Shown: in pieces, positions 1 to 12,173 of the stretch
Numbering within the stretch: the stretch's first letter is position 1
How the letters are laid out: each line of letters opens with the position of its first letter
Origin: Flavobacterium enshiense DK69
GTDB taxonomy: Bacteria > Bacteroidota > Bacteroidia > Flavobacteriales > Flavobacteriaceae
Assembly: GCF_000498495.1 (NCBI RefSeq)
Contig: NZ_AVCS01000004.1
Coordinates: 62,001-126,000 of the forward strand
DNA length: 64,000 nt
Reading direction: 5' to 3'
Notes under the pieces: generated by a model
Told to the model about the DNA's origin: nothing
Databases searched by the model: none
The model's input: the letters and a program-made list of their open reading frames with translations, nothing else
Program-made: the position numbers and the translations under genes

Positions 1-73
1 GTTTTTAAAAAATTTGTTTTTGTTAAAAAAAATTGTACTTTTCCCAAAAACCAAGAAACCTATTAAACAATTT

Positions 74-667
74 ATGAAAAAGACACTTTTATTATTTGCA
101 TTAGCAATAATGACAACTGTCGGGTATAGTCAGAAAAAGAAAAAGAGCGCTTCAAAATCGAGCTCTTCTTCTGAAGTTTTGGCTAAATCCGATAATCTTA
201 CTGCAGAGATGGGAAAGAATGCATTTAATTTATATCTCAATGATGGCGGAAAAAAAGAAGCTCTTTTTACGCGCCCGGTAGATCCTAAAAGGAAATTGTC
301 GGAATGCAAGATTACGAGTTATAAAGCAAAAGATACCAAACTGTATTATATTTCCTGGGTAGAAAAAGGGACCAATAAGACCGATTTAAAAACAGAAGAA
401 GTAACAAGTACTGTGTCCGAAATCTGGGAAGTATCTACAAAAACGCAAGTTGCTGCAAACACGCACACTATAACGAATATCACTGAAAAAGTCTTTTTGG
501 ATCAGGCGAAAGAGGTTTCAGAAACCCAGCAAAGAAGACGAGTTGAAGGATCTGAGTTCAAATTATTGCCCAATGGAGATGCTATTCTAAAGGGTAAATC
601 CGGGGAAACCAAATATACATATGATCCTGCGACTAAAAAATATGTCGCGGCGGGAAAGAAAAAATAA
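74..667 (+). CDS. Secreted hypothetical protein
   Basis: Predicted exported protein of 197 residues with no recognised family. The start is placed at the ATG at 74, not the in-frame ATG at 14, because a classic signal peptide begins there: MKK, a hydrophobic stretch, and a likely cleavage after VGYSQ. The mature part opens with a lysine/serine-rich linker (KKKKSASKSSSSS), then a polar, mostly beta-looking region, and ends in a basic AAGKKK tail. A good terminator follows within 10 bases, so the gene appears to be transcribed alone or as the last gene of a unit that begins outside the window. It is probably periplasmic or surface associated; function is unknown. Confidence 0.75.
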   Translation: MKKTLLLFALAIMTTVGYSQKKKKSASKSSSSSEVLAKSDNLTAEMGKNAFNLYLNDGGKKEALFTRPVDPKRKLSECKITSYKAKDTKLYYISWVEKGTNKTDLKTEEVTSTVSEIWEVSTKTQVAANTHTITNITEKVFLDQAKEVSETQQRRRVEGSEFKLLPNGDAILKGKSGETKYTYDPATKKYVAAGKKK

Positions 668-675
668 ACCAATTA

Positions 676-703
676 AACCAGTGATAATTTCACTGGTTTT
701 TTT
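676..703 (+). terminator. Rho-independent terminator after first gene
   Basis: Arms AACCAGTGA and TCACTGGTT around a 5-base loop, followed by a T run. It sits 9 bases past the stop of the upstream secreted protein gene. Confidence 0.8.
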
Positions 704-837
704 ATTTACTATTCTTCGGTTTATTGCTTTACGTCGTTAATAGAGTAATAAAAACGATTTAACAGTAACAATTTTTCTGAAAAAAGATAAAAAAGCGATA
801 TTTGTATTACAAAAAACCAATTCTAAAAGTAGAAACT

Positions 838-1017
838 ATGATGAACAAAAATACTGTTTTAGGCTGGGCAACATTTATTATGATTGTTATGGGTTGCATA
901 TTGATAGGATTAGCGATATACCGTTATGCTGATGTGGCCGGATGGGGTTTTGCTGCTGTAGGTATCGGTTTTTTTTCCATTGCATGGGTTTTTAACGCAT
1001 TAAACGGAAGAGTGTAA
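838..1017 (+). CDS. Small two-helix membrane protein
   Basis: A 59-residue hydrophobic protein with two predicted transmembrane segments: residues about 8-25 (WATFIMIVMGCILIGLAI) and about 32-52 (GWGFAAVGIGFFSIAWVF). I chose the tandem ATG ATG at 838 over the in-frame TTG at 802, which would add a polar N-terminus and overlap a near-consensus -7 element (GATATTTG, 797-804). Its composition (glycine between bulky hydrophobics, short polar ends) looks like a genuine small membrane protein. It resembles the small CAL67264-like membrane proteins of Flavobacteriaceae in general character, but I cannot assign a family. It stands alone between a terminator and a large palindrome. Confidence 0.6.
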   Translation: MMNKNTVLGWATFIMIVMGCILIGLAIYRYADVAGWGFAAVGIGFFSIAWVFNALNGRV

Positions 1018-1091
1018 GCTAAATAATAAATGAAACGGAAAGCTATTTTATGATTTACGTTAACATTTAAAGATATTTTAAAATTATTTAA

Positions 1092-1445
1092 ATGCACTTA
1101 AATAATCCAAAAGAAAGAGCCACAGTAATATTACTGTGGCTCTTTCTTTTGGATGCATTCAATCTATTTATAAAGTACTACTTACAAAATAACATATTAA
1201 CGTTCTTGTTTGTAATATTTTACTTCTTAACGATTATAGTTGCGGTTTATCGGACAAATATGTTAATTTTTTCAAAACTATTTACTTTTAATCTACTAAA
1301 ATCTAAAAAACATAAGACTATTTTAGTTATTGTAGGGTTTTTCTTTTATGTTATGATATTGAATGTGTGGGATGAACCCGACAAAAAATGCAATGGCAAC
1401 TGTGGAGTTTCCGGTAGGGTGACCGTGCAAACTTTCATACAGTAA
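1092..1445 (+). CDS. Doubtful ORF, predicted membrane protein
   Basis: An open frame of 117 codons with three hydrophobic stretches (residues about 12-28, 35-54 and 76-92) and a short Cys-containing tail (KKCNGNCG). I do not recognise it. Its first codons run through a perfect 50-bp palindrome, which is odd for coding DNA and suggests that the real start lies later, for example at the ATG at 1260-1262 (MLIFSK), or that this is non-coding DNA rich in T. The frame ends about 120 bases before the asparaginase gene. Kept at low confidence because hydrophobic open frames arise easily in AT-rich DNA. Confidence 0.3.
   Translation: MHLNNPKERATVILLWLFLLDAFNLFIKYYLQNNILTFLFVIFYFLTIIVAVYRTNMLIFSKLFTFNLLKSKKHKTILVIVGFFFYVMILNVWDEPDKKCNGNCGVSGRVTVQTFIQ
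1105..1154. repeat. Perfect 50-bp palindrome
   Basis: Two 25-base arms with no spacer, centred between 1129 and 1130; left arm reads ATCCAAAAGAAAGAGCCACA then GTAAT, right arm is its exact reverse complement. One side is purine rich and ends the hairpin with a pyrimidine run (CTCTTTCTTTT), so it could act as a terminator for the gene ending at 1017, but the unusual length and symmetry are not explained by that alone. Confidence 0.85.
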
Positions 1446-1568
1446 ATGATCCCAATCTGAATGATGAACCATTACAGACAATCAGTTTCCCTTTAAGTAC
1501 AATTTAAATGAGATGTAATATAAAAAAATCAATAAAACATAATTAATCAACTTTTAATTCCTTATACA

Positions 1569-2645
1569 ATGAAAGCACCTATATTTTCAGCAAAAACAGC
1601 AAAAATAATGAGCCTTCTTTTAGGTTTATTTATAGGATTTAGTGTTCAGGCACAAAGTTTACCACGTGTAAAAATTCTTGCAACAGGAGGAACCATTGCC
1701 GGTGCCGGTGCTGCTGCAGATCAGGCCGGATATAAGGCTGGTGCGCTTCCTATTGACCAGTTATTAAGTGCCGTACCGCAAATTCACAAATATGCAACCG
1801 TTACCGGCGAGCAGATTTCGAGTATCGGAAGTCAGGATATGTCCATCGAAATCTGGATGAAGCTTAACAAGCGCATCAATGAAATATTCAGTAAAAACGA
1901 AGCAGATGCTGTTGTGATTACCCACGGAACCGATACTCAGGAAGAAACATCCTTTTTCCTTAATCTGACGCTTAGAAGCGACAAACCCGTTGTATTTACA
2001 GGATCAATGCGTGCAGCAACGGCTATTAGTGCAGACGGACCTAAAAACCTGTTTGATGCTGTTGTGGTTGCCGCAAGTCCGAAAAGTAAAGGCAGAGGGC
2101 CTATTGTAGTATTCTCGGAAAGTATTTTTGACGGAAGGGATATCGTGAAAACAAGTTCCACGCACATGGAAGCCTATACTGCTCCCAATGCAGGGCCGAT
2201 CGGACAAGTATATGATGCGAAACCGGTTTATTATCAGGAATCGGCACGTAAATCAGACAAAAACACGCCGTTTGATATTTCGGGAGTGACAAAATTGCCA
2301 CGTGTTGAAATCGTTTATATGTATGCCGATGCTAATCCTTCTCTAATCAATGCCTTAGTAAATGAAAAAGTAGACGGAATTATTATCGCAGGAGTTGGAA
2401 ACGGAAATTTCAATAAAGCATATTATGATGCTATCGATGCTGCCGTTAAAAAAGGAGTGGTGGTTTGTAGAGCAACAAGATGTGTTTCTGGCCGTGTGGT
2501 TCTTAAAGACGAGGTTGACGATGACAAACTGGGAACTATCGTAAGTGACGATTTGAATCCTCAAAAGGCACGTATCTTACTGATGGTGGGTTTAACCAAA
2601 ACCAAAGATAAAAAGCAATTACAACAGTATTTCTTTGAGTATTAA
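1569..2645 (+). CDS. ansB: Type II L-asparaginase, exported
   Basis: Hydrolyses L-asparagine to aspartate and ammonia, probably in the periplasm. The 358-residue product starts with a signal peptide (hydrophobic residues about 12-27, cleavage near SVQAQS). Both asparaginase signatures are present: ATGGTIAG near residue 38, with the catalytic Thr, and VVITHGTDTQEET near residue 115, with the second active-site Thr-Asp pair; FTGSMR follows as in the family. The length is right for the bacterial type II enzymes of roughly 350 residues. It is first in a same-strand set with aspartase, porin, glutaminase and a DUF481-type protein, spaced 45-80 bases, so its aspartate product is a direct substrate of the next gene. 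No clear -7 element was found upstream. Confidence 0.93.
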   Translation: MKAPIFSAKTAKIMSLLLGLFIGFSVQAQSLPRVKILATGGTIAGAGAAADQAGYKAGALPIDQLLSAVPQIHKYATVTGEQISSIGSQDMSIEIWMKLNKRINEIFSKNEADAVVITHGTDTQEETSFFLNLTLRSDKPVVFTGSMRAATAISADGPKNLFDAVVVAASPKSKGRGPIVVFSESIFDGRDIVKTSSTHMEAYTAPNAGPIGQVYDAKPVYYQESARKSDKNTPFDISGVTKLPRVEIVYMYADANPSLINALVNEKVDGIIIAGVGNGNFNKAYYDAIDAAVKKGVVVCRATRCVSGRVVLKDEVDDDKLGTIVSDDLNPQKARILLMVGLTKTKDKKQLQQYFFEY

Positions 2646-2722
2646 TCTCAGGTTGCTAAATGTCCCTTGTTAAAAACTGTCGGAAAGATTTTTAAAATTA
2701 TTTCCGGGTAAAATAAAAAGTC

Positions 2723-4183
2723 ATGAGAAAAGTAAAATATATTCCTCTTATGTTGCTGATGATTGCTTCATCACAATATTCAATTGCTCAAGTCCGAACA
2801 GAAAAAGATTTGTTAGGTGAAAAGCAAATACCCGCTGATGCTTACTATGGAGTTCAAACGCTGAGAGCTTTGGAAAACTTCCAGGTTAGCGGAGTTAAAA
2901 CTAATTTTTATCCCGACTATGTGAAAGCCTATGCCATAGTAAAGCTGGCAGCTGCCAGAGCTAACGGTGAAGTGGGCCGAATGAAAAAAGACCGACTTGC
3001 GGCCATAGAAAAAGCCTGTCAGGCAGTTATGGATGGTAAATATCACGACCAGTTTTTAACCGATTTGTATCAGGGAGGTGCAGGAACTTCGGCTAATATG
3101 AATGCCAATGAAGTACTGGCAAATATTGCCCTTGAAATGATGGGGAAAAAGAAAGGGGAGTATCAGTACATCGAACCTCATGACGATTTAAACATGGGAC
3201 AGTCCACCAATGATGTGTACCCAACTGCTATACATATCGCTTTGATTCTGCATAATGATAAAGTTATGAAGGAAGCTCAACTGTTAGCGCAGTCTTTCCA
3301 TAAAAAAGGAGATCAGTTTAATCATCTGTTAAAGATGGGGCGTACGGAAGGGCAGGATGCCGTGCCAATGACATTAGGGCAGGAGTTTCACGCCTTCGGT
3401 TATCAGCTTGATGCCGCCATTGATGCAATGCGTAAGTCGGAAGCCTACCTGTATGAAGTGAATATGGGAGCAACGGCTATCGGTACAGGACTGACAGCTA
3501 CTCCGGGTTATGCTGAAAAATGTTCGGCACAACTTGCTAAAATCACAGGAAAACCGATTCATACATCCAAAGACCTTATTGCTGCAACAAGCAGTATGCA
3601 GGCCTTTGTGATGTATTCTTCTTCAATAAAAAATTTAGCTGTTACCTTATCTAAAATCAGCAGTGATTTAATCTTCCTTGCAACTGGTCCGCGAACAGGT
3701 ATTTTCGAGATCAATTTGCCGGCTCTTCAGCCCGGATCGTCTATCATGCCTGGAAAAGTAAATCCGGTAATGCCGGAATTGATGAACCAGATCTGTTTTA
3801 AAGCGATAGGTAATGATGTAACTGTTACATTCGCATCACAGGACGGACTTTTGCAGCTGAATGCTTACGAACCGGTTGTTGCCGTGGCAATTATGGAATC
3901 TCAGGCGTTATTTTATAAATCAATGCCGTTATTCCGTAAAAATTGTATTGACGGAATCACTGCCAACGAAAAAGTGATGCAAAAATACATCGAACGAAGC
4001 GTAGGAATTGTTACGGCTCTAAATCCGGTTCTTGGTTATGAAAAAACAACCGAATTGGCCAAAGAAGCCCTTGAGAAAGATAAGGGGATCCTTGAATTGA
4101 TCCGAGAAAAGAAATTGCTTACCGAAGATCAGATTAAGAAATTGTTAGATCCGGCAGCAATGACCGGACAACAGAAAAAATAA
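2723..4183 (+). CDS. aspA: Aspartate ammonia-lyase with signal peptide
   Basis: Converts L-aspartate to fumarate and ammonia. The enzyme core is canonical: DLLGEKQIPADAYYGVQTLR at about residues 29-48, GGAGTSANMNANEV near 114-127, GQSTNDVYPTA, and the flexible catalytic loop [15 protein letters not shown]. What is unusual is the N-terminus: the short cytoplasmic leader of normal aspartases is replaced by MRKVKYIPLMLLMIASSQYSIAQ, a plausible Sec signal peptide ending in IAQ. The total of 486 residues equals a normal aspartase (about 470) plus that leader. It follows the exported asparaginase by 77 bases, so the two would act in sequence outside the cytoplasm. Family assignment is secure against fumarase C (a separate class II fumarase occurs at 20.3 kb); export is inferred from the signal only. 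Confidence 0.9.
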   Translation: MRKVKYIPLMLLMIASSQYSIAQVRTEKDLLGEKQIPADAYYGVQTLRALENFQVSGVKTNFYPDYVKAYAIVKLAAARANGEVGRMKKDRLAAIEKACQAVMDGKYHDQFLTDLYQGGAGTSANMNANEVLANIALEMMGKKKGEYQYIEPHDDLNMGQSTNDVYPTAIHIALILHNDKVMKEAQLLAQSFHKKGDQFNHLLKMGRTEGQDAVPMTLGQEFHAFGYQLDAAIDAMRKSEAYLYEVNMGATAIGTGLTATPGYAEKCSAQLAKITGKPIHTSKDLIAATSSMQAFVMYSSSIKNLAVTLSKISSDLIFLATGPRTGIFEINLPALQPGSSIMPGKVNPVMPELMNQICFKAIGNDVTVTFASQDGLLQLNAYEPVVAVAIMESQALFYKSMPLFRKNCIDGITANEKVMQKYIERSVGIVTALNPVLGYEKTTELAKEALEKDKGILELIREKKLLTEDQIKKLLDPAAMTGQQKK

Positions 4184-4228
4184 TTGTGGAATCTTTTTCG
4201 GAGAAATCCGGAAATAAAATAAGTCCCA

Positions 4229-5545
4229 ATGAAATCAAATGTAGTTGAAGGCGAAAGCCAACCAAAACTATCGATTAGGATAAAAAAAACCTTGTTATCA
4301 CTGCTTTTTGTGGTAACAGGGTTTGTTTCTTATGCGCAAGTTGAGCCAAAAGCGCCTGTTCCGGATGGTACTCAAGGAGAAGTTTTTCGTGAGAAGGAAG
4401 CAGATAGTTTGGAAGTCAAAAAGAAGTATGAACATTTTAACGAGTTTGAAAACTCGTTAACCACATTGAGATTTGGGGGAGGTTTTTTATATGAATTTGC
4501 AACATACAGTCAGGATGACGTAAGCAAAGATCAGGTAGAGCTTTCTCCTGTTTTTAAAGTAAGGGATGCCAGGGTTACAGCGTCAGGTAAATTAAAAACC
4601 AAAAGGGAAATAACTTGGAAAGTTGGTGTTATGCATGATGGGAATCAAAAAACCTGGTATATGAGGGAAACCGGAGTCATGGTAAAATTTCCCGAGATAT
4701 CCGGACATATTTTTGTAGGCAGAACAAAAGAAGGATATTCGCTAAGCAAGGTGAAAGTTGGATATTCCACATGGTTTTTGGAAAGAGCTATGGCAATTGA
4801 TATCATCCCAATCCTTGGTGATGGTATAAAGTACCTCGGATTTCTTCCCAAACAGCGTATTAACTGGAACATTGGTGCTTATACGGATTGGCTGTCCGAA
4901 GGGCAGAGCTTTTCAAAATACCAATGGCAATTTGCCTCAAGAGTAGCTTACCTGCCTATCTATACAGATGCAACAAAGCCTATGATGCATATAGGAGTCA
5001 ACTACCGGTATGGAAAAGTTAAAAACGGTGAACTGCAGGTGAGATCCAAACCAGAAGCTGATCCGGCCCCATATTTTATTGATACCGGGAAGTTTTCGGT
5101 TTACAGTTCCAATCATGTCGGGGGTGAATTTTATTATCGCAATGGTCCATTTTTGTTTGGGTCAGAGGTTAATGCCCACATGATGAATTCATCTGAAACA
5201 GGAAATCCTATATTTTACGGAGGTGAAGCATTTATGGCATATACAATCAATGCTCAAACCAGGCCTTATTTTGCCAGTACAGGGATATTTGGCTTCGTTA
5301 AAGTAAAAAAATCAGTTTTCGATGGAGGATACGGGGCATTTGAATTTACACTTCGTTATTCAAGTCTTGACCTTGATGATGGTACTTTAACCGGAGGTAA
5401 GTTCTGGAGAGTCACACCAAATGTCAATTGGTATCTTTCAGATAACATACGCCTTTATTTTACTTATGGTTATGGTGTTTTGGATAGATATAATCAGGAA
5501 GGGGTTACCAATTTTTTTCAAAGCCGAATCTTATTTATGCTATAA
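4229..5545 (+). CDS. OprO/OprP-type outer-membrane porin
   Basis: Predicted outer-membrane beta-barrel of 438 residues resembling the phosphate-selective porin O/P family. The N-terminus carries an unusually long polar n-region before the signal peptide core (residues about 22-36, ending VSYAQ). The body consists of alternating aromatic-rich strands, with WKVGVMHDG and MRETGVMVKFPEISGHIFVGRTKEGYS-like segments typical of this family, and it ends in an aromatic/hydrophobic strand (FFQSRILFML). Its place between aspartase and glutaminase suggests that it lets Asn, Asp, Gln or their products across the outer membrane; this substrate is inference, since family members carry different anions. Intergenic gaps are 45 and 64 bases, in keeping with one operon. 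Confidence 0.8.
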   Translation: MKSNVVEGESQPKLSIRIKKTLLSLLFVVTGFVSYAQVEPKAPVPDGTQGEVFREKEADSLEVKKKYEHFNEFENSLTTLRFGGGFLYEFATYSQDDVSKDQVELSPVFKVRDARVTASGKLKTKREITWKVGVMHDGNQKTWYMRETGVMVKFPEISGHIFVGRTKEGYSLSKVKVGYSTWFLERAMAIDIIPILGDGIKYLGFLPKQRINWNIGAYTDWLSEGQSFSKYQWQFASRVAYLPIYTDATKPMMHIGVNYRYGKVKNGELQVRSKPEADPAPYFIDTGKFSVYSSNHVGGEFYYRNGPFLFGSEVNAHMMNSSETGNPIFYGGEAFMAYTINAQTRPYFASTGIFGFVKVKKSVFDGGYGAFEFTLRYSSLDLDDGTLTGGKFWRVTPNVNWYLSDNIRLYFTYGYGVLDRYNQEGVTNFFQSRILFML

Positions 5546-5609
5546 CAGATTTGAAGCATTGCACTATATACATCGATTCAACTTGATGACTTAAAATAAA
5601 TACATTATC

Positions 5610-6647
5610 ATGAAAAAAAGCTATTTTAGAAAAAGGATAATGTCTTTATCGTTGTTGTTGATTACTGCTTTGATTTACGGTCAATCAAAAGAAAAAACTG
5701 CCAATGTGATGTCTAAAGAAAATATAGAGGCTGTACTGAAAGAAGCATACTCAAAATTTAAAGACGTAAAAGAAGGTAAGAACGCTGACTATATTAAAGA
5801 ATTAGCCAATGTTGATCCGAATATTTTTGGGATTGCCCTGGTAACTACTGATGGAAAAGTATATACTATTGGTGATTATAATTCTATGGTGTCCATTCAA
5901 AGCATAAGCAAGGCTTTTGTTATGGCTCAGATTATCGAGGAGGACGGTCATCAGGCCATTCAGGATAAAATTGGAGTGGATGCAACCGGTATGCGGTTTA
6001 ATTCAATCGTTGCAGTAGAAGAGCACAAAGGACAGGAAATTAATCCATTGGTAAATCCGGGAGCCATTGCAGCGACAAGTATGGTTAAAGGCAATGATTC
6101 TGTTGCCAAATGGGAAAGCATATTGGCTAAACAAAGTGAATTTGCAGGCCGGACTTTATCACTTAACAAGCCTGTGTATATCAGCGAAGCCAGCGATAAT
6201 CTGAGAAATCAGGCAATCGCCCATTTGCTTTTTTCTTATGGTAGGTTGTATTTCGACCCGATTCAGTCAACCGATATTTACACGAAGCAATGCGCCCTTA
6301 ATGTAAGCGCAAAAGATCTGGCTGTAATGTCGGCCACTTTAGCGAATGGCGGAGTTAACCCTGTCACCAAAAAGAAAGTGGTATCGCCCGAAACGGTAAT
6401 GTACACGCTTCCGGTTATGGCAACGGCCGGACTTTATGATGATTCGGGAATTTGGTTTTACAATTCCGGATTACCGGCAAAAAGCGGTGTTGGGGGAGGT
6501 ATTATAGCGGTCTGTCCGGGTAAATTCGGTATCGGAGTGGTTTCTCCGCCTTTGGATGCCGCAGGTAATAGTTTGAAATCCCAATTGGTAATTAAATATG
6601 TGGTTGAAAAGCTAAAGGCTAATCCATATTTAATTCAGCCTAAATAA
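5610..6647 (+). CDS. glsA: Glutaminase A, exported
   Basis: Hydrolyses L-glutamine to glutamate and ammonia. The serine-dependent beta-lactamase-like glutaminase fold is recognisable: SIQSISKAF (Ser-x-x-Lys nucleophile motif) near residue 95, NPLVNPGAIAA near 144, SEASDNLRNQAIAHLL near 193, and the C-terminal GVGGGIIAVCPGKFGIGV. The 345 residues exceed the roughly 310 of cytoplasmic glutaminases because of an N-terminal signal peptide (MSLSLLLITALIYGQ, starting after a basic MKKSYFRKRI). It is the fourth gene of the exported Asn/Asp/Gln set. An internal Met at residue 11 could be an alternative start and would still leave a signal peptide. Confidence 0.93.
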   Translation: MKKSYFRKRIMSLSLLLITALIYGQSKEKTANVMSKENIEAVLKEAYSKFKDVKEGKNADYIKELANVDPNIFGIALVTTDGKVYTIGDYNSMVSIQSISKAFVMAQIIEEDGHQAIQDKIGVDATGMRFNSIVAVEEHKGQEINPLVNPGAIAATSMVKGNDSVAKWESILAKQSEFAGRTLSLNKPVYISEASDNLRNQAIAHLLFSYGRLYFDPIQSTDIYTKQCALNVSAKDLAVMSATLANGGVNPVTKKKVVSPETVMYTLPVMATAGLYDDSGIWFYNSGLPAKSGVGGGIIAVCPGKFGIGVVSPPLDAAGNSLKSQLVIKYVVEKLKANPYLIQPK

Positions 6648-6660
6648 TTTAATCGTATCT

Positions 6661-6700
6661 GGCCTGTTGCGTATTTGGAAACCAGCAGGTTTTATTTTGT
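6661..6700 (+). terminator. Weak hairpin after glutaminase gene
   Basis: CCTGTTG and CAGCAGG form a 7-bp stem (one G-T pair) followed by TTTTATTTT. It may partly end the operon before the DUF481-type gene. The stem is short, so this is tentative. Confidence 0.4.
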
Positions 6701-6724
6701 GTTTAAGTTTTTAATTAAAAAGGG

Positions 6725-7951
6725 ATGTTTAGTTATTCAAAAACATTGATGGTCTTATTGCTGGTCTTTCCATTGTTTTTGTATGCCCAAATCCCTGAAA
6801 AAAAGAAAACAGATTCCATTCCTTCCGTAGAACACGATACAGTACAGAAAGTTTTAGAAGTAGAAGTAGATACCACGCTTTCCGAAAGTGAAAAAAAAGT
6901 CAGAAAAGAGGCTTTTACACCCGATATTTTACACCTGATAAACGGCGACAGGTTAACCGGTAAAATTTTATCGTTCCAACAGGGGAGATTAAGTTTTGAT
7001 GCACAGGGGCCCGGTGTTGTTTCCATAAAATGGTACAAAATATTTTCCATTGACGGCGGAAGTAAAATATATAAAGTGGAAAATATTTACGGCGAAATTT
7101 TCATCGGGAAAATAGCCAAATCTGATATGATGGGAGAAATAATTGTTTTAACAGGACCAGATGAAATAATCGAATCAAGTGTAACAGCCGAGTCCAGCGC
7201 AACAGCCGAGCTAAAAAAAAGTGTGCCGAAAGGAACAACAATTAAGTTTGAAGAAATTTTAAGAATTTTTCCTCTTGAAGAAAAATGGTATGAGGGATTT
7301 AAGGGCGATATAGGAGCAGGGGTGAGTTATACAAAGTCTTCTGAAGTACTACGTATTAGCGCGGAAAGTAACCTTTTTTACGTTATTTCACGATGGCGGT
7401 TCGTTAATAATTTCTCATATATGGCAACTTCAACGGAAAGTTCTGATTATTCGGTGAGGATACAGGAAAATCTTCAGGAGTTTTATTCGTTATACAGAAA
7501 ATGGGTGCTTTATCAGGCCAATGCGTTTAACAGGAATGACGAACTGGGTATCGATGCAAAACTATCGTTTGGTTTCGGGATAGGAAATAATCTCATAATT
7601 ACGGAACGTCAAAGGCTGTTGTTGTTCACAGGTTTTTTGCAAAATTTTGAAGACAATATAAATTCAGATAAGTTTGTTGCAAACAGTGAATGGCCTGTAA
7701 CGCTGCAACATACGGTGTACAGTTTTATAAGCCCAAATCTTTCCTCGACATTAAAAGCGGGTTCTTATGTCGGACTCACTGAAAAAGACAGATACCGTTT
7801 TGACCTGAGCGCCGATCTTACTTGGGAAATATTCAACGATTTCAAAATACAATTCTCCTTTTATTATAATTACGACAATAAAAACATAGTCGGAAAAAAC
7901 ACAAAAGAGGATAGCGGTACAGAACTGTCTTTTTTATTGGAACTGAAATAG
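6725..7951 (+). CDS. DUF481/YdiY-type outer-membrane protein
   Basis: Predicted exported protein of 408 residues: signal peptide (residues about 8-22, ending LYAQ), a charged linker to about residue 70, a small beta domain starting HLINGDRLTGKI, and a C-terminal barrel-like half rich in aromatic strands (FVNNFSYMATSTESSDYSV, YQANAFNRNDELGIDAKLSF, RLLLFTGFLQNFED) as in DUF481 proteins. E. coli YdiY of this family has been described as acid inducible. Position directly after the glutaminase gene, same strand, 77 bases away, suggests a link to the exported amidase set. A tandem 18-bp duplication (7175-7210) encodes SSVTAE-SSATAE in the linker between the two domains. Confidence 0.7.
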   Translation: MFSYSKTLMVLLLVFPLFLYAQIPEKKKTDSIPSVEHDTVQKVLEVEVDTTLSESEKKVRKEAFTPDILHLINGDRLTGKILSFQQGRLSFDAQGPGVVSIKWYKIFSIDGGSKIYKVENIYGEIFIGKIAKSDMMGEIIVLTGPDEIIESSVTAESSATAELKKSVPKGTTIKFEEILRIFPLEEKWYEGFKGDIGAGVSYTKSSEVLRISAESNLFYVISRWRFVNNFSYMATSTESSDYSVRIQENLQEFYSLYRKWVLYQANAFNRNDELGIDAKLSFGFGIGNNLIITERQRLLLFTGFLQNFEDNINSDKFVANSEWPVTLQHTVYSFISPNLSSTLKAGSYVGLTEKDRYRFDLSADLTWEIFNDFKIQFSFYYNYDNKNIVGKNTKEDSGTELSFLLELK

Positions 7952-8062
7952 AAAACTGTAGAACTTCTTCCGAATTTTATTTCTTGATTTTTTTGATTTT
8001 ACTACTCTGAAAATGCAATTACAGAATTGCAAAATCATCTTTTAAATTCTTTTATTTAACCC

Positions 8063-8070
8063 TATATTTG
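8063..8070 (+). promoter_or_regulatory. Probable -7 element of ettA
   Basis: TATATTTG fits the Bacteroidota TAnnTTTG consensus 65 bases before the ettA start. No convincing TTG at the expected upstream distance was found. Confidence 0.35.
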
Positions 8071-8134
8071 TCGGTATCTTTTTTTAGGATACATAATCAG
8101 TTCAAAAACAAACAATAAACATAAATAGTAAAGT

Positions 8135-9826
8135 ATGTCAGACGATAAGAAAGTGATATTTTCGATGTCGAAAGTAAGTAAGACTTACTCAAGCACGAAT
8201 AAGCAGGTTTTAAAAGATATTTACTTAAGTTTTTTCTACGGAGCTAAAATCGGTATCCTTGGTTTAAACGGTTCAGGTAAATCATCATTATTGAAAATTA
8301 TTGCAGGTGTAGATAAAAACTATCAGGGAGATGTGGTATTTGCACCAAATTATACGGTTGGTTATTTAGAGCAGGAGCCCCATTTAGATGAAACCAAAAC
8401 GGTTATTGATGTTGTTCGTGAAGGAGTTGCCGGAACAATGGCAATTTTGGACGAGTTCAATAAAATTAATGATATGTTCGGACTTCCGGAAGTGTATGAG
8501 GATGCCGATAAGATGCAGAAATTAATGGATCGTCAGGCCGAATTGCAGGATAAAATCGATGCGGCAGGCGCTTGGGAGATCGATACTAAACTGGAAATCG
8601 CAATGGATGCTTTACGTACTCCGGATGCCGATACGCCAATCAGCGTGTTGTCAGGAGGAGAGAAGCGTCGCGTAGCTTTATGCCGTTTACTATTACAACA
8701 ACCGGACGTTCTATTATTGGATGAGCCTACCAACCACTTGGACGCTGAGTCAGTATTGTGGTTAGAGCAACACTTGTCACAATATGCAGGAACTGTAATT
8801 GCTGTAACGCACGACCGTTATTTCCTTGATAACGTTGCGGGTTGGATTTTGGAGTTAGACAGAGGTGAAGGTATTCCATGGAAAGGAAACTATTCTTCTT
8901 GGTTAGAGCAAAAATCAAAACGTATGGAGCTTGAAGAAAAAACAGCTTCAAAACGCCGTAAGACTTTAGAGCGTGAGTTGGACTGGGTTCGTCAGGGAGC
9001 GAAAGGACGTCAGACAAAACAAAAAGCACGTTTACAGAACTATGATAAGTTGTTAAACGAAGATCAAAAAGAACTTGACGAAAAATTAGAATTATACATC
9101 CCGAACGGACCGCGTTTAGGAACAAATGTTATCGACGCGAAAAACGTTGCAAAAGGATACGGAGACAAATTGTTATATGATAATTTGAACTTCACTTTGC
9201 CGCAAGCAGGTATTGTTGGTATTATAGGTCCGAATGGTGCAGGTAAAACAACGATCTTCAAAATGATCATGGATGAATTGCAACCGGACAGTGGGGAATT
9301 CCACACTGGTGAAACAGTGAAAATTGCTTATGTAGATCAGTCGCATGCAAATATTGACCCGAACAAATCCATTTGGGAAAACTTCTGTGATGGTCAGGAA
9401 TTGATCATGATGGGAGGCCGTCAGGTAAATTCAAGAGCTTATCTGTCACGTTTTAATTTCGGAGGAAGCGAACAGAATAAAAAAGTGTCTACGCTTTCAG
9501 GAGGAGAACGTAACCGCTTACACTTAGCCATGACGCTAAAAGAAGAAGGAAACGTGTTGTTGTTGGATGAACCAACGAATGACTTGGATATCAACACGCT
9601 TCGTGCTTTAGAGGAAGGTTTGGAGAATTTTGCAGGTTGTGCTGTGGTTATTTCCCACGACCGTTGGTTCTTAGACCGAATCTGTACTCACATTTTGGCA
9701 TTTGAAGGTGATTCTCAAGTGTACTTTTTTGAAGGTGGTTTCTCCGAATATGAAGAAAACCGTAAAAAACGTTTAGGAGATGTTGCTCCAACCCGAATTA
9801 AGTACAAAAAGCTTATCAGAGGATAA
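8135..9826 (+). CDS. ettA: Energy-dependent translational throttle EttA
   Basis: ABC-F ATPase that binds the ribosomal E site and tunes translation to cellular energy; cytoplasmic, no membrane segments. Two nucleotide-binding domains are evident: Walker A GLNGSGKSS (near residue 43), signature LSGGEKRR and Walker B LLLDEPTNHLD in the first; Walker A GPNGAGKTT (near 367), signature LSGGERNR and LLLDEPTNDLD in the second. Between them lies the basic linker (KRRKTLERELDWVRQGAKGRQTKQ region), matching EttA in place. The 563 residues fit the usual 555-565. It is flanked by a -7 element upstream and a strong terminator downstream, so it appears monocistronic. Confidence 0.95.
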   Translation: MSDDKKVIFSMSKVSKTYSSTNKQVLKDIYLSFFYGAKIGILGLNGSGKSSLLKIIAGVDKNYQGDVVFAPNYTVGYLEQEPHLDETKTVIDVVREGVAGTMAILDEFNKINDMFGLPEVYEDADKMQKLMDRQAELQDKIDAAGAWEIDTKLEIAMDALRTPDADTPISVLSGGEKRRVALCRLLLQQPDVLLLDEPTNHLDAESVLWLEQHLSQYAGTVIAVTHDRYFLDNVAGWILELDRGEGIPWKGNYSSWLEQKSKRMELEEKTASKRRKTLERELDWVRQGAKGRQTKQKARLQNYDKLLNEDQKELDEKLELYIPNGPRLGTNVIDAKNVAKGYGDKLLYDNLNFTLPQAGIVGIIGPNGAGKTTIFKMIMDELQPDSGEFHTGETVKIAYVDQSHANIDPNKSIWENFCDGQELIMMGGRQVNSRAYLSRFNFGGSEQNKKVSTLSGGERNRLHLAMTLKEEGNVLLLDEPTNDLDINTLRALEEGLENFAGCAVVISHDRWFLDRICTHILAFEGDSQVYFFEGGFSEYEENRKKRLGDVAPTRIKYKKLIRG

Positions 9827-9834
9827 AGAAATTT

Positions 9835-9863
9835 AAAAGCGACCTTTTTAGGTCGCTTTTTTT
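9835..9863 (+). terminator. Strong terminator of ettA
   Basis: AAAAGCGACC and GGTCGCTTTT form a 10-bp stem with a 6-base loop, ending in TTT. It starts 8 bases after the ettA stop. Confidence 0.9.
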
Positions 9864-9944
9864 ACAACATTTTTTAAATATTTTTTGATTTTTTATATAT
9901 GATATTTGGTTTTTGTTTATTAAATTAACACTTTGAAATTTTTG

Positions 9945-12173
9945 ATGAGCAAAAACATATTAAAATTCTCACTTCTGTTTATTCTGCTGGCTTTTCAGGG
10001 GGCGCTTGCTCAATCTGAATCAGTTAGCCCTAAAAATATTTTAGATCTTTTATCAAAATCCAGAGAGCATTTTAATAATCTTGAAAATGGAAAATCATTA
10101 TTGTATGCGAAAAAGGCATTAAATGAAGCCAGTAAAATTGAAGATAATCAGTTGGTGGCCAAATCCTATAATCTGATAGGATTGAACTTTGAAGAGTTTT
10201 CAGATTACGGTAAAGCCGCTGGTTATTATTATAAGGGATTAAAATTCGCCAATCTTACAACAAATGATTCCTTAAAAGGATGGTTGCACAATAATCTCGG
10301 GAATTTATACTGTTACAGAAAAATCAATTTTGATAAAGGAATAGCTTCTTATAAGAGAGCTCTTTTCTATAAACAAAAAATAAAGGATTCAACCGAAATT
10401 ATGTTTACGAACCTGAATATTGCCTCGGCTTATTTTGCCAATGAGGATTATGTTTCAGGATTTCCCTATTTAAAACTTGCTGAACCGTTTGTTAAGAAGT
10501 TGAACATAATGGAATCGACCTTGGCGATGAATTCAATGTACGGATCCTATTTCACTTTTAAAAATGAATATGAAAAAGCGGAGTCTTCCTTCAAGGAAGC
10601 ACTAAAGGTTTGCCAAACCAACGATGTTGAAATTCTTGAAACCAATGTGGCGGAGTTGTACGGAGACATATCCAAGTATTATCTGAAAATAAAGGATTAC
10701 GAGAATGCGTACCTGTATTTAGAAAAGCACAATGCTTTAGAAGAAAAAATTTATAATGAAGCACGTGCCGATGAAGTAAAAGTAGCCGGCTCTCATATTG
10801 AATTAGACGAATATAAAAGAGAAATAGATAAAATAGAGAATGAAAAACTTGTGCAGACGACCAGGTTGCAGCATACGCGATTAATAGTCGTAATGTTTAT
10901 ATTCATCTTTTTCATTCTTTTGTTATTGGTATACACGCTTTATAAAAACAATCAACTAAGAAAGAAAACGAATAAGAAGTTAAAAGTGGCCAATGAAGAA
11001 CTTATGATTGCCAAAGAACAGGCAGAAGAAGCTTCGTTGTTAAAGTCTCAATTTATTTCGACAATTACTCATGAACTCCGAACTCCTTTATACGGAGTGG
11101 TTGGAATTACCGACATGATTGCTGATGAGCACAGAGAACTTAAAAACAGCACCTATCTTAAATCCTTAAAGTTTTCTGCCAAGTACTTACTGTCGCTAGT
11201 AAATGATATTCTACAGGTTTATAAAATTGAAGAGAAAAAAATAGTTCTGGAGAATTCTATATTTAATCTTTCCGACGAATTGAATTCAATCGTAGACAGC
11301 CTACAATTCTTAGCTGTAAAAAACAATAATCAGTTGCTATTGGAAGTAGACGATTCAATCCCGGAATTTATTATTACAGATAAAGTGCGCTTATCACAGA
11401 TTTTCATGAATTTAGTGAGTAACTCGCTGAAATTTACTAAAGATGGTGAGGTGAAAATCTGTGCGAAGTTTGAACGTTACGAGGCCTCATACTGTTTCAT
11501 TACCTTCAAAGTGATAGATGACGGAATCGGAATTGCAAAAGAGCATCAGAAAAAAATATTTGAAAAATTTGTTCAGATCGAACGAAAAGAAGACGATTAT
11601 CAGGGAACCGGTTTGGGATTGTCCATCGTTAAGCAATTGATTTCCTTGTTTGGAAGTGAAATTCATTGTGAGAGCGAAGAGAATCTAGGTACACAGATGA
11701 TTTTTACAATTGGTTTTGATACGGATGAAAATCATCGCAATGACTTACTCAAAAATCTTGAAGTTGATTTCTCAGAAGAGCATACTTATAAAGTTTTGGT
11801 TGTTGAAGATAACAAGATCAACCAAATTGTGACGAAGAAAATATTGGATATTCGCCATTTTGAAAGCGTTATCGTTGATGACGGTTATGAAGCGATCAAG
11901 ATATTGGAAAACAATACTTTTGATGTTATTCTGATGGATATCAATATGCCTAAAATTAATGGTTTTGACACATCAAAGCTTATCAGAAAAATGGGAATTA
12001 ATACTCCTATAATAGCTGTAACCGCTTTCGATAAACAGGAAATTATGGAGCAGATAGTGGCTTCTAAAATGAATGAAGTAATCGTAAAACCTTTTGATCC
12101 GAATCATTTATATAGAATGATCAAGCATCTTTCTGAAAAAAAAGACGAGATTTTAAAGACGAAACTTAATTAG
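9945..12173 (+). CDS. TPR hybrid histidine kinase/response regulator
   Basis: One-protein phosphorelay sensor of 742 residues. In order: signal peptide (to about residue 23, ALAQ), an extracytoplasmic helical region of TPR-like repeats (about 30-280), a transmembrane helix at about 305-325 (IVVMFIFIFFILLLLVYTLY), a coiled coil, the H box FISTITHELRTPLYG with phospho-acceptor His near residue 376, the N box NLVSNSLKFTKDG, the G boxes DDGIGIA and GTGLGLSIV, and a receiver domain (KVLVVEDNKINQ) whose phospho-Asp is in ILMDINMP near 665. ATG at 9945 is preferred over TTG at 9933. No DNA-binding output is attached, so the signal must pass to other proteins. No neighbouring target gene is evident. 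Confidence 0.9.
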   Translation: MSKNILKFSLLFILLAFQGALAQSESVSPKNILDLLSKSREHFNNLENGKSLLYAKKALNEASKIEDNQLVAKSYNLIGLNFEEFSDYGKAAGYYYKGLKFANLTTNDSLKGWLHNNLGNLYCYRKINFDKGIASYKRALFYKQKIKDSTEIMFTNLNIASAYFANEDYVSGFPYLKLAEPFVKKLNIMESTLAMNSMYGSYFTFKNEYEKAESSFKEALKVCQTNDVEILETNVAELYGDISKYYLKIKDYENAYLYLEKHNALEEKIYNEARADEVKVAGSHIELDEYKREIDKIENEKLVQTTRLQHTRLIVVMFIFIFFILLLLVYTLYKNNQLRKKTNKKLKVANEELMIAKEQAEEASLLKSQFISTITHELRTPLYGVVGITDMIADEHRELKNSTYLKSLKFSAKYLLSLVNDILQVYKIEEKKIVLENSIFNLSDELNSIVDSLQFLAVKNNNQLLLEVDDSIPEFIITDKVRLSQIFMNLVSNSLKFTKDGEVKICAKFERYEASYCFITFKVIDDGIGIAKEHQKKIFEKFVQIERKEDDYQGTGLGLSIVKQLISLFGSEIHCESEENLGTQMIFTIGFDTDENHRNDLLKNLEVDFSEEHTYKVLVVEDNKINQIVTKKILDIRHFESVIVDDGYEAIKILENNTFDVILMDINMPKINGFDTSKLIRKMGINTPIIAVTAFDKQEIMEQIVASKMNEVIVKPFDPNHLYRMIKHLSEKKDEILKTKLN

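Follow-up and report, generated by a model that had tools for sequence, protein, structure and literature searches.

Locus layout and gene identities

We analyzed a stretch of 64,000 nucleotides from Flavobacterium enshiense DK69 (contig NZ_AVCS01000004.1, positions 62,001 to 126,000; the whole stretch is called the window here) and a run of five genes within it, for an asparaginase, an aspartase, a porin, a glutaminase and a DUF481-type protein (Table 1). All five lie on the forward strand, separated by 77, 45, 64 and 77 bases, and all five proteins begin with a hydrophobic, signal-peptide-like segment. Open reading frame (ORF) coordinates, family scans and N-termini thus bear out an earlier note on this DNA, which had described five genes of these families in one direction with short gaps and signal peptides. 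The run is likely, judging from sequence, to be an acquired catabolic operon that degrades Asn, Asp and Gln in the periplasm, with uptake of C4 compounds and release of ammonia. The member that stands out is the aspartase, which is usually treated as a cytoplasmic enzyme.

The asparaginase exceeds the TIGR00520 cut-off (417.3 bits against 314.3), its solved relatives are 5k4g, 1wsa and 3eca, and its hydrophobic N-terminus ends QAQ|S. The glutaminase scores above the cut-offs of both NF009020 (435.4 against 395) and TIGR03814 (333.6 against 255.4), and its best solved relative, 1u60, aligns over residues 38-338. The porin reaches 75.9 bits with PF07396 (gathering score 20.9). The DUF481 family match of the last protein is weak (PF04338, 37.3 bits against 21.1) and covers residues 209-403 only.

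Table 1. Features of the locus and of one compared locus (window positions unless a locus is named; L007, F. limnosediminis; L119, a genome of the same family as F. enshiense)
Feature	Position	Strand	Family, predicted reaction or basis
Type II L-asparaginase (AnsB), signal-peptide-like N-terminus	1569-2645	+	TIGR00520; predicted Asn -> Asp + NH3
Predicted exported aspartate ammonia-lyase (AspA), signal peptide about residues 1-22, Glu209	2723-4183	+	NF008909; predicted Asp -> fumarate + NH3
Glu209 codon, clade-diagnostic residue at the AspB His188 position	3347-3349	+	Alignment to 1j3u
Porin_O_P-family outer-membrane porin	4229-5545	+	PF07396
Glutaminase A, signal-peptide-like N-terminus	5610-6647	+	NF009020, TIGR03814; predicted Gln -> Glu + NH3
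Terminator-like hairpin and U-rich tract preceding the DUF481 gene	6661-6706	+	L007 counterpart within 10872-10922
DUF481-type beta-barrel, signal peptide and extra N-terminal beta region, 12 predicted strands	6725-7951	+	PF04338
DcaP-type (PF19577) outer-membrane channel gene relic, 3' end	1376-1535	+	blastn to L007:5624-6829
Dcu-AspA-AnsB-SdhC b558/FrdA/FrdB-porin run	L119:6885-15332		

A conserved N-terminal extension in the aspartase

Relatives of the window aspartase were sought in genome_contigs (one genome per species, 84,980 species) with six short peptides as query, a search that detects close relatives only. It returned 55 loci, nearly all from Bacteroidota by title; the others were two contigs of metagenome-assembled genomes (MAGs), one Pyrinomonadaceae and one Krumholzibacteriia (L046 and L048). 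In each of the 54 rows whose N-terminus is intact, that of the window among them, a hydrophobic extension precedes the catalytic core, with a highest nine-residue Kyte-Doolittle mean of 1.63-3.8, and it is also present in seven exported-type enzymes found later, two of which duplicate L011 and L056. Five control rows compared alongside have only 3-5 residues ahead of the core. A cleavage-like [AGSC]|Q pair, a permissive pattern of our own making, occurs in 53 of the 54 exported-type rows. Pairwise identity among these rows is 27% in the extension and 81% in the core; since a variable extension ahead of a well kept core is what would be expected of a signal peptide, we interpret it as one. The core also has fewer cysteines in the exported type (mean 4.2, range 2-6) than in other aspartases (mean 6.9, range 4-10), the ranges overlapping.

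The other aspartases in our comparison, 34 in all, carry Gln at the position that is diagnostic for the exported type (see below). Among these Gln-type enzymes, 13 start at most six residues from the core, 16 have an N-terminal extension of 157-180 residues, and five have ORFs that can be read from 10-34 residues upstream, each with a Met 3-4 residues before the core.

The 16 long proteins are Bacteroidota aspartases of 617-647 residues (L084-L088, L090-L094, L097, L098, L102-L104 and L106). In L084, the only one of them scanned, the extension is a cyclic-nucleotide-binding domain (PF00027); an aspartase of this kind that senses cyclic nucleotides would, if true, be of interest.

Family assignment and active site

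The window aspartase exceeds the NF008909 cut-off (659.8 bits against 510) and falls short of the class II fumarase cut-off (TIGR00979, 448.8 against 664.75); its best solved relatives are the aspartases 6wng, 1j3u and 1jsw. NF008909 is not decisive alone, since the class II fumarase of the same genome (L005) also passes it with 533.4 bits. That fumarase scores 782.9 with TIGR00979, above the cut-off and higher than with the aspA model, the reverse of the pattern in the window enzyme. For the four exported-type enzymes scanned (window, L046, L069 and L083), fumarase scores are 430-483 bits, and all four are nearer to aspA than to fumarase.

The structures 1j3u and 1jsw, which we take to be AspB of Bacillus sp. 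YM55-1 and AspA of Escherichia coli, share with the window enzyme the sequence family, the SS loop and the carboxylate-pocket residues, but in their chains the alignment starts at residue 4, with the catalytic core, and they have His or Gln at the position of residue 209. Both the SS loop (GSSIMPxKVNP) and the carboxylate-pocket residues are invariant in the 53 exported-type rows with letters there; the same holds, among the pocket and SS-loop positions, for T122, S161, T162, N163 and T208 in the 53-55 rows that cover them. Since the fumarase control has the SS loop as well, this loop is not specific to aspartases. PMC11744663 names Thr187, Met321, Lys324 and Asn326 as the alpha-carboxylate pocket of AspB, and the exported-type rows match these residues; the same paper describes His188, the counterpart of residue 209, as contacting the substrate amine.

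Every one of the 55 exported-type rows that cover residue 209 has Glu at this position, and so do all 59 exported-type sequences of a set assembled for a tree, which also held the 34 Gln-type aspartases (34/34 Gln) and two outgroup rows (both His). The outgroup rows were L005, which passes the fumarase cut-off, and a second copy from L048, which does not pass it and is fumarase-like. The exported type thus has neither Gln nor His at this amine-contacting position, neither being a known defining requirement for an aspartase. Fifteen further positions separate the exported type from other aspartases, including I for R at 317. For L069-L106 the signal-peptide labels were assigned from the Glu and afterwards checked by reading the N-termini, so that Glu209 and the label are not independent in that set; in the comparison of 55 rows they are.

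With column 209 left out, the exported-type enzymes form one clade (support of 99 in the Shimodaira-Hasegawa-like approximate likelihood-ratio test, SH-aLRT, by a quick method), whose stem measures 0.53 changes per site. Its two most divergent members, L069 (56%) and L083 (68%), retain the signal peptide and Glu209. Named Flavobacterium sequences occupy four separate places in the tree: F. limnosediminis with the window, F. aquariorum with F. taihuense, F. saccharophilum with LC2016-12, and isolate WM.006. This scattered placement points to horizontal transfer in the history of the family. Carriage on a plasmid was considered and rejected: among 243 plasmid matches there was no record at 60% identity or above. 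In a sample spread evenly over the phylum, 41 of 395 genomes had a match at E <= 1e-140; 30 loci were opened, and the exported type was recognised in 7 genomes. Among 121 genomes of the same genus it was recognised in 13, judged by identity of at least 78%. Of 299 genomes sampled from the same family, 92 had a match, and opening of the ten best loci showed the exported type in 2. We recognised no earlier report of an exported or periplasmic aspartase, or of this clade, in the open-access literature searched; one Candida paper listed there (PMC12016522) mentions a 'secreted aspartase'.

Gene neighbourhood of exported-type and cytoplasmic aspartases

Gene linkage was counted within 6 kb on the same strand at 62 exported-type loci and at 21 cytoplasmic-aspartase loci drawn from the 34 Gln-type enzymes. 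The 62 loci represent 60 distinct ones (L112 is identical to L011, and L113 to L056); L009/L012 and L030/L050 share MAGs, and L058 was dropped, its contig ending inside aspA. An asparaginase gene lies near the exported aspartase at 57 of the 62 loci, against 4 of the 21 controls, or 3 true asparaginases once a GatD (L123) is set aside. A Dcu C4-dicarboxylate carrier is present at 34/62 loci, a DASS carrier at 11/62 and either of the two at 37/62; among the controls, Dcu was found at 3/21 and all other tested families, channels included, at 0/21. Outer-membrane channels are also frequent near exported aspartases by models that were themselves built from exported loci: a porin like that of the window at 29/62, a second Porin_O_P type at 28/62, a PF19577 (DcaP) channel at 15/62, and any tested outer-membrane channel at 50/62. 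DcaP presumably transports dicarboxylates.

At five exported-type loci no asparaginase was counted. Four of them are on contigs that end in or just after aspA (L027, L053, L055 and L057), and in the fifth, L046, there is none in 3 kb downstream, with only 443 bases available upstream. A chance neighbourhood was considered and rejected on the linkage at 57 of 62 loci and on the recurrence of the asparaginase-aspartase pair across Bacteroidota. Conservation of the five-gene order, which the earlier note had proposed as a check, was not borne out: the exact order was found in none of the other 55 loci examined, some of which are cut by contig ends. The nearest arrangements are those of F. limnosediminis (L007), without the glutaminase, and of L011 (ansB-aspA-porin-porin-glsA).

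Some clusters include a cytoplasmic aspartase. Those of F. aquariorum (L020) and F. taihuense (L044) have one in tandem with an exported aspartase, together with malic enzyme, an AspT-like gene, AnsB, Dcu and a porin. In three genomes of the same family as F. enshiense (L117, L119 and L133), the genes for Dcu, a cytoplasmic AspA and an exported AnsB are followed by those for cytochrome b558, a fumarate reductase/succinate dehydrogenase flavoprotein, an iron-sulfur protein and a porin; the reductase genes were scanned in L119, and those of L117 and L133 were read by length and N-terminus. These three clusters share a Dcu-AspA-AnsB core with the exported-type loci but differ in that AspA has no signal peptide and carries Gln, and in that the porin is of the PF13609 family. 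They are apparent fumarate-respiration operons, and would be the classical counterpart of the exported system.

At five loci (L011, L021, L025, L026 and L038) we also observed a glutaminase gene followed by those of an exported-looking protein of about 443 residues and of a PF04909 amidohydrolase with a hydrophobic N-terminus.

Proposed pathway and relation to known systems

In the pathway that we propose, amino acids would enter through the Porin_O_P porin or other outer-membrane channels, whose family is established by the scans and whose substrates are presumed. The type II asparaginase would convert Asn to Asp, the aspartase would release fumarate and ammonia from Asp in the periplasm, and the glutaminase, an add-on in this genome, would convert Gln to Glu and ammonia. 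A C4-dicarboxylate carrier could then move fumarate across the inner membrane, where it would feed the tricarboxylic acid cycle or serve as electron acceptor in fumarate respiration, and the ammonia could be used as a nitrogen source. The equilibrium constant of aspartase is in the millimolar range, and low concentrations outside should drive the reaction towards fumarate.

The carrier in F. enshiense is probably the Dcu on contig C12 (L064:3853-8178), where a DUF2490 gene is followed by AspT (TIGR03802), Dcu, Porin_O_P and genes that we take, from their N-termini, to be of the rplT, infC and thrS types; the single DASS carrier of the genome is the other candidate. The corresponding site in L020 has malic enzyme, AspT, two aspartases, AnsB, Dcu and a porin. 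By this comparison, the C12 site of F. enshiense contains the transporter part, and the genes for its asparaginase and exported aspartase are found elsewhere in the genome, which also encodes a single fumarate reductase/succinate dehydrogenase flavoprotein.

The route from Asn through Asp to fumarate in the periplasm had been suggested in the earlier note, and the conserved signal peptides, the clade and the gene linkage support it. Among the uses considered there, we favour supply of fumarate as a C4 compound, because of the Dcu or DASS carriers at 37 of 62 loci, the DcaP channels at 15 of 62, and the three same-family clusters in which Dcu, AspA and AnsB accompany fumarate reductase/succinate dehydrogenase genes.

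The closest known cluster is AnsB-AspA-DcuA (Asuc_0140-0142) of Actinobacillus succinogenes, described in PMC10634366; its asparaginase II is called periplasmic, and the scheme given leads from Asn through Asp to fumarate, serving both fumarate respiration and nitrogen. Asparaginase and aspartase go together in both systems. In A. succinogenes, by that scheme, Dcu is part of the cluster, DcuA imports aspartate and the aspartase is cytoplasmic, whereas the window aspartase combines a signal peptide with Glu209, the exported-type clusters also contain outer-membrane channels, and Dcu is encoded elsewhere in the F. enshiense genome. The window operon thus appears to depart from the AnsB-AspA-Dcu module in two features, having no Dcu in the cluster and no cytoplasmic aspartase there. 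We regard it as probable that the system is a topological rearrangement of this module, with deamination outside instead of inside. A more specific proposal, which we hold only tentatively, is that the clade is a distinct exported lyase family retuned for the periplasm, whether as an aspartase whose kinetics have changed or as a lyase that acts on another amine; it would make fumarate outside in place of aspartate uptake and travel between Bacteroidota as a cassette with asparaginase, channels and C4 carriers.

Two other comparisons concern the amidohydrolases. The window glutaminase is of the same family as YbaS (1u60), with an added signal peptide. Glutaminase-asparaginases such as 4pga, presumably periplasmic, are likewise Asn/Gln amidohydrolases related to the window asparaginase, but in them one enzyme serves both amides, and we know of no exported aspartase step that goes with them.

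If true, a widespread exported aspartase would mean that fumarate production has moved to the periplasm and that the carrier transports fumarate rather than aspartate, and would explain how C4-dicarboxylate carriers could enable some Bacteroidota to use Asn and Asp. The invariant Glu209, at a position that contacts the amine, offers a test of substrate tuning and could interest engineers who use aspartases.

Alternative explanations

Several observations weigh against a periplasmic aspartase pathway of this kind. The window aspartase falls below the strict TIGR00839 aspA cut-off (615.7 bits against 681.2), as do all four exported-type enzymes scanned, at 598-628 bits; with the passage of NF008909 by the fumarase of the same genome and with Glu209, this leaves room for another substrate. 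The five Gln-type ORFs with a longer upstream reading include two (L099 and L101) in which that reading is hydrophobic. On the side of the gene neighbourhood, the channel counts favour exported loci because of the origin of the channel models, and a porin, though of a different family (PF13609), does occur further downstream in three control clusters. Two of the 13 Gln-type enzymes left out of the controls, those of L020 and L044, adjoin AnsB and Dcu, in the tandem clusters. Finally, no C4 carrier adjoins the operon either in F. enshiense or in F. limnosediminis, and the DcaP-type channel gene neighbouring the operon has been lost in F. enshiense.

The main purpose might instead be nitrogen scavenging, with the ammonia of Asn, Asp and Gln stripped off on the outer side of the inner membrane and carbon secondary; we find this doubtful. 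It would fit the grouping of three ammonia-releasing enzymes with signal peptides and the presence of glutaminase within 6 kb at 7 of the 62 loci, but not the 37 of 62 loci at which Dcu or DASS is near the exported aspartase, and the recurrent gene clusters identified, which are not all of those present, include no ammonium transporter or nitrogen regulator. Nitrogen use overlaps with fumarate supply and is compatible with it; the nitrogen role put forward in the earlier note stands as compatible and is inseparable here from the supply of fumarate.

It is unlikely that the exported lyase is not chiefly an aspartase. Under this explanation Glu209 would have given the enzyme a different substrate, for example some other C4-acid amine or amide, or made it favour hydration; its linkage to asparaginase would then be a sign of a wider amino-acid pathway. 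It would account for a Glu fixed where AspB His188 interacts with the amine, for the 15 further separating positions, and for the four failures out of four at the TIGR00839 cut-off, which the cytoplasmic aspartases of L020 (695) and L119 (729) pass; NF008909, for its part, does not exclude a fumarase. Yet the alpha-carboxylate pocket of AspB and the SS loop are conserved, the scores favour aspA over fumarase, the products of the partner genes make aspartate and transport C4-dicarboxylates, and a Glu might do no more than bind the ammonium group.

Acid resistance by ammonia release, with the DUF481 protein as an acid-related part by its link to YdiY, is very improbable. Ammonia-releasing enzymes are indeed present, the best solved relative of the glutaminase is a 'probable glutaminase ybaS', which we take to be acid-related, and DUF481-type genes occur in the stretch examined at 10 of 56 loci, the window and L007 included. 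Outside L007, however, their similarity is only 22-26% and most of them lie on the opposite strand, and the window protein is a weak family match, a predicted 12-stranded barrel encoded behind a terminator-like hairpin. In an AlphaFold2 model of this protein (mean predicted local distance difference test, pLDDT, 71; predicted TM-score, pTM, 0.56), 12 long strands stand behind the signal peptide and a small beta region. Foldseek matched the model to outer-membrane barrels; the best target TM-scores among those noted were NanC 0.69, Tsx 0.61 and PcoB 0.58, with query TM-scores of only 0.33-0.39. The model suggests an outer-membrane protein and offers no link to an acid response. Neither acid neutralisation nor the YdiY connection, both raised in the earlier note, is upheld by these results, and no acid-stress gene was found among the recurrent neighbours identified.

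Least probable of all is an unused N-terminal extension and a cytoplasmic aspartase, in favour of which the window protein has internal Met at residues 10 and 13, given a hydrophobic extension kept in 54 of 54 rows despite 27% identity, the cleavage-like site in 53 of 54, the fewer cysteines, and the agreement with the clade and with Glu209.

Transcription of the run

A single transcript of all five genes is doubtful, because the terminator-like hairpin precedes the DUF481 gene, as a counterpart does in F. limnosediminis. Where the folded stretch was chosen to fit the hairpin, the minimum free energy (MFE) is -12.4 in the window (z -1.87) and -17.3 in F. limnosediminis (z -3.54); the whole gap ahead of the DUF481 gene in the window folds no better than shuffles (z -0.42), and the same is true of the intergenic gaps over their full length. 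The DUF481 gene may belong to a separate or partly terminated transcript. No Rfam element or riboswitch was matched in window positions 1-12000. The motif TTTG/TANNTTTG, which we assume to be a Bacteroidota-type promoter, has six matches in the window against 3.5 expected by chance, none of them just upstream of 1569. The histidine kinase encoded at 9948-12173 was considered as a regulator of the operon and dropped, because it is 83% alike at the same site in L007 but only 35-36% alike to the kinases near L033 and L040, which are probably paralogues.

History of the locus

The F. enshiense genome has related genes elsewhere. A second aspartase-like gene on contig C11 is 52% identical to that of the window and has no signal peptide, the class II fumarase is 37% identical to the window aspartase, and one more PF00710 asparaginase is 25% identical to that of the window; the window glutaminase matches only itself.

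At the same site F. limnosediminis has genes for DnaK, a 200-residue protein, a PF19577-type channel, ansB, aspA, the porin, DUF481, an ABC-F-type ATPase and a histidine kinase, and the glutaminase of the window is absent from that copy. Ahead of the asparaginase gene, the window has a relic of the channel gene. In L007 this gene is intact and 1206 bases long, and blastn aligns the relic to its bases 1046-1206, at 71% over 162 bases (E 1e-15). The window lineage has thus apparently lost about 1 kb of this gene and keeps its last 160 bases.

In two genomes of the same genus (L169 and L170), the genes that flank the operon, a CAL67264-family gene (841-1017 in the window) and the ABC-F gene (8135-9826), are adjacent, 57 and 51 bases apart. 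This arrangement is probably the empty insertion site of the operon. The other seven fetched regions comprise two with other genes between the flanks and five without a CAL67264 match.

Two further features were seen near these sites. Between the porin and DUF481 genes of F. limnosediminis, a GC-rich stretch that differs from the sequence around it (L007:10960-11090) may be a repeat or a mobile element. The window has a palindrome at 1106-1153, with 20 counted pairs and a loop of 4-8, which lies within a doubtful ORF (1092-1445), after the CAL67264-family gene and before the DcaP relic.

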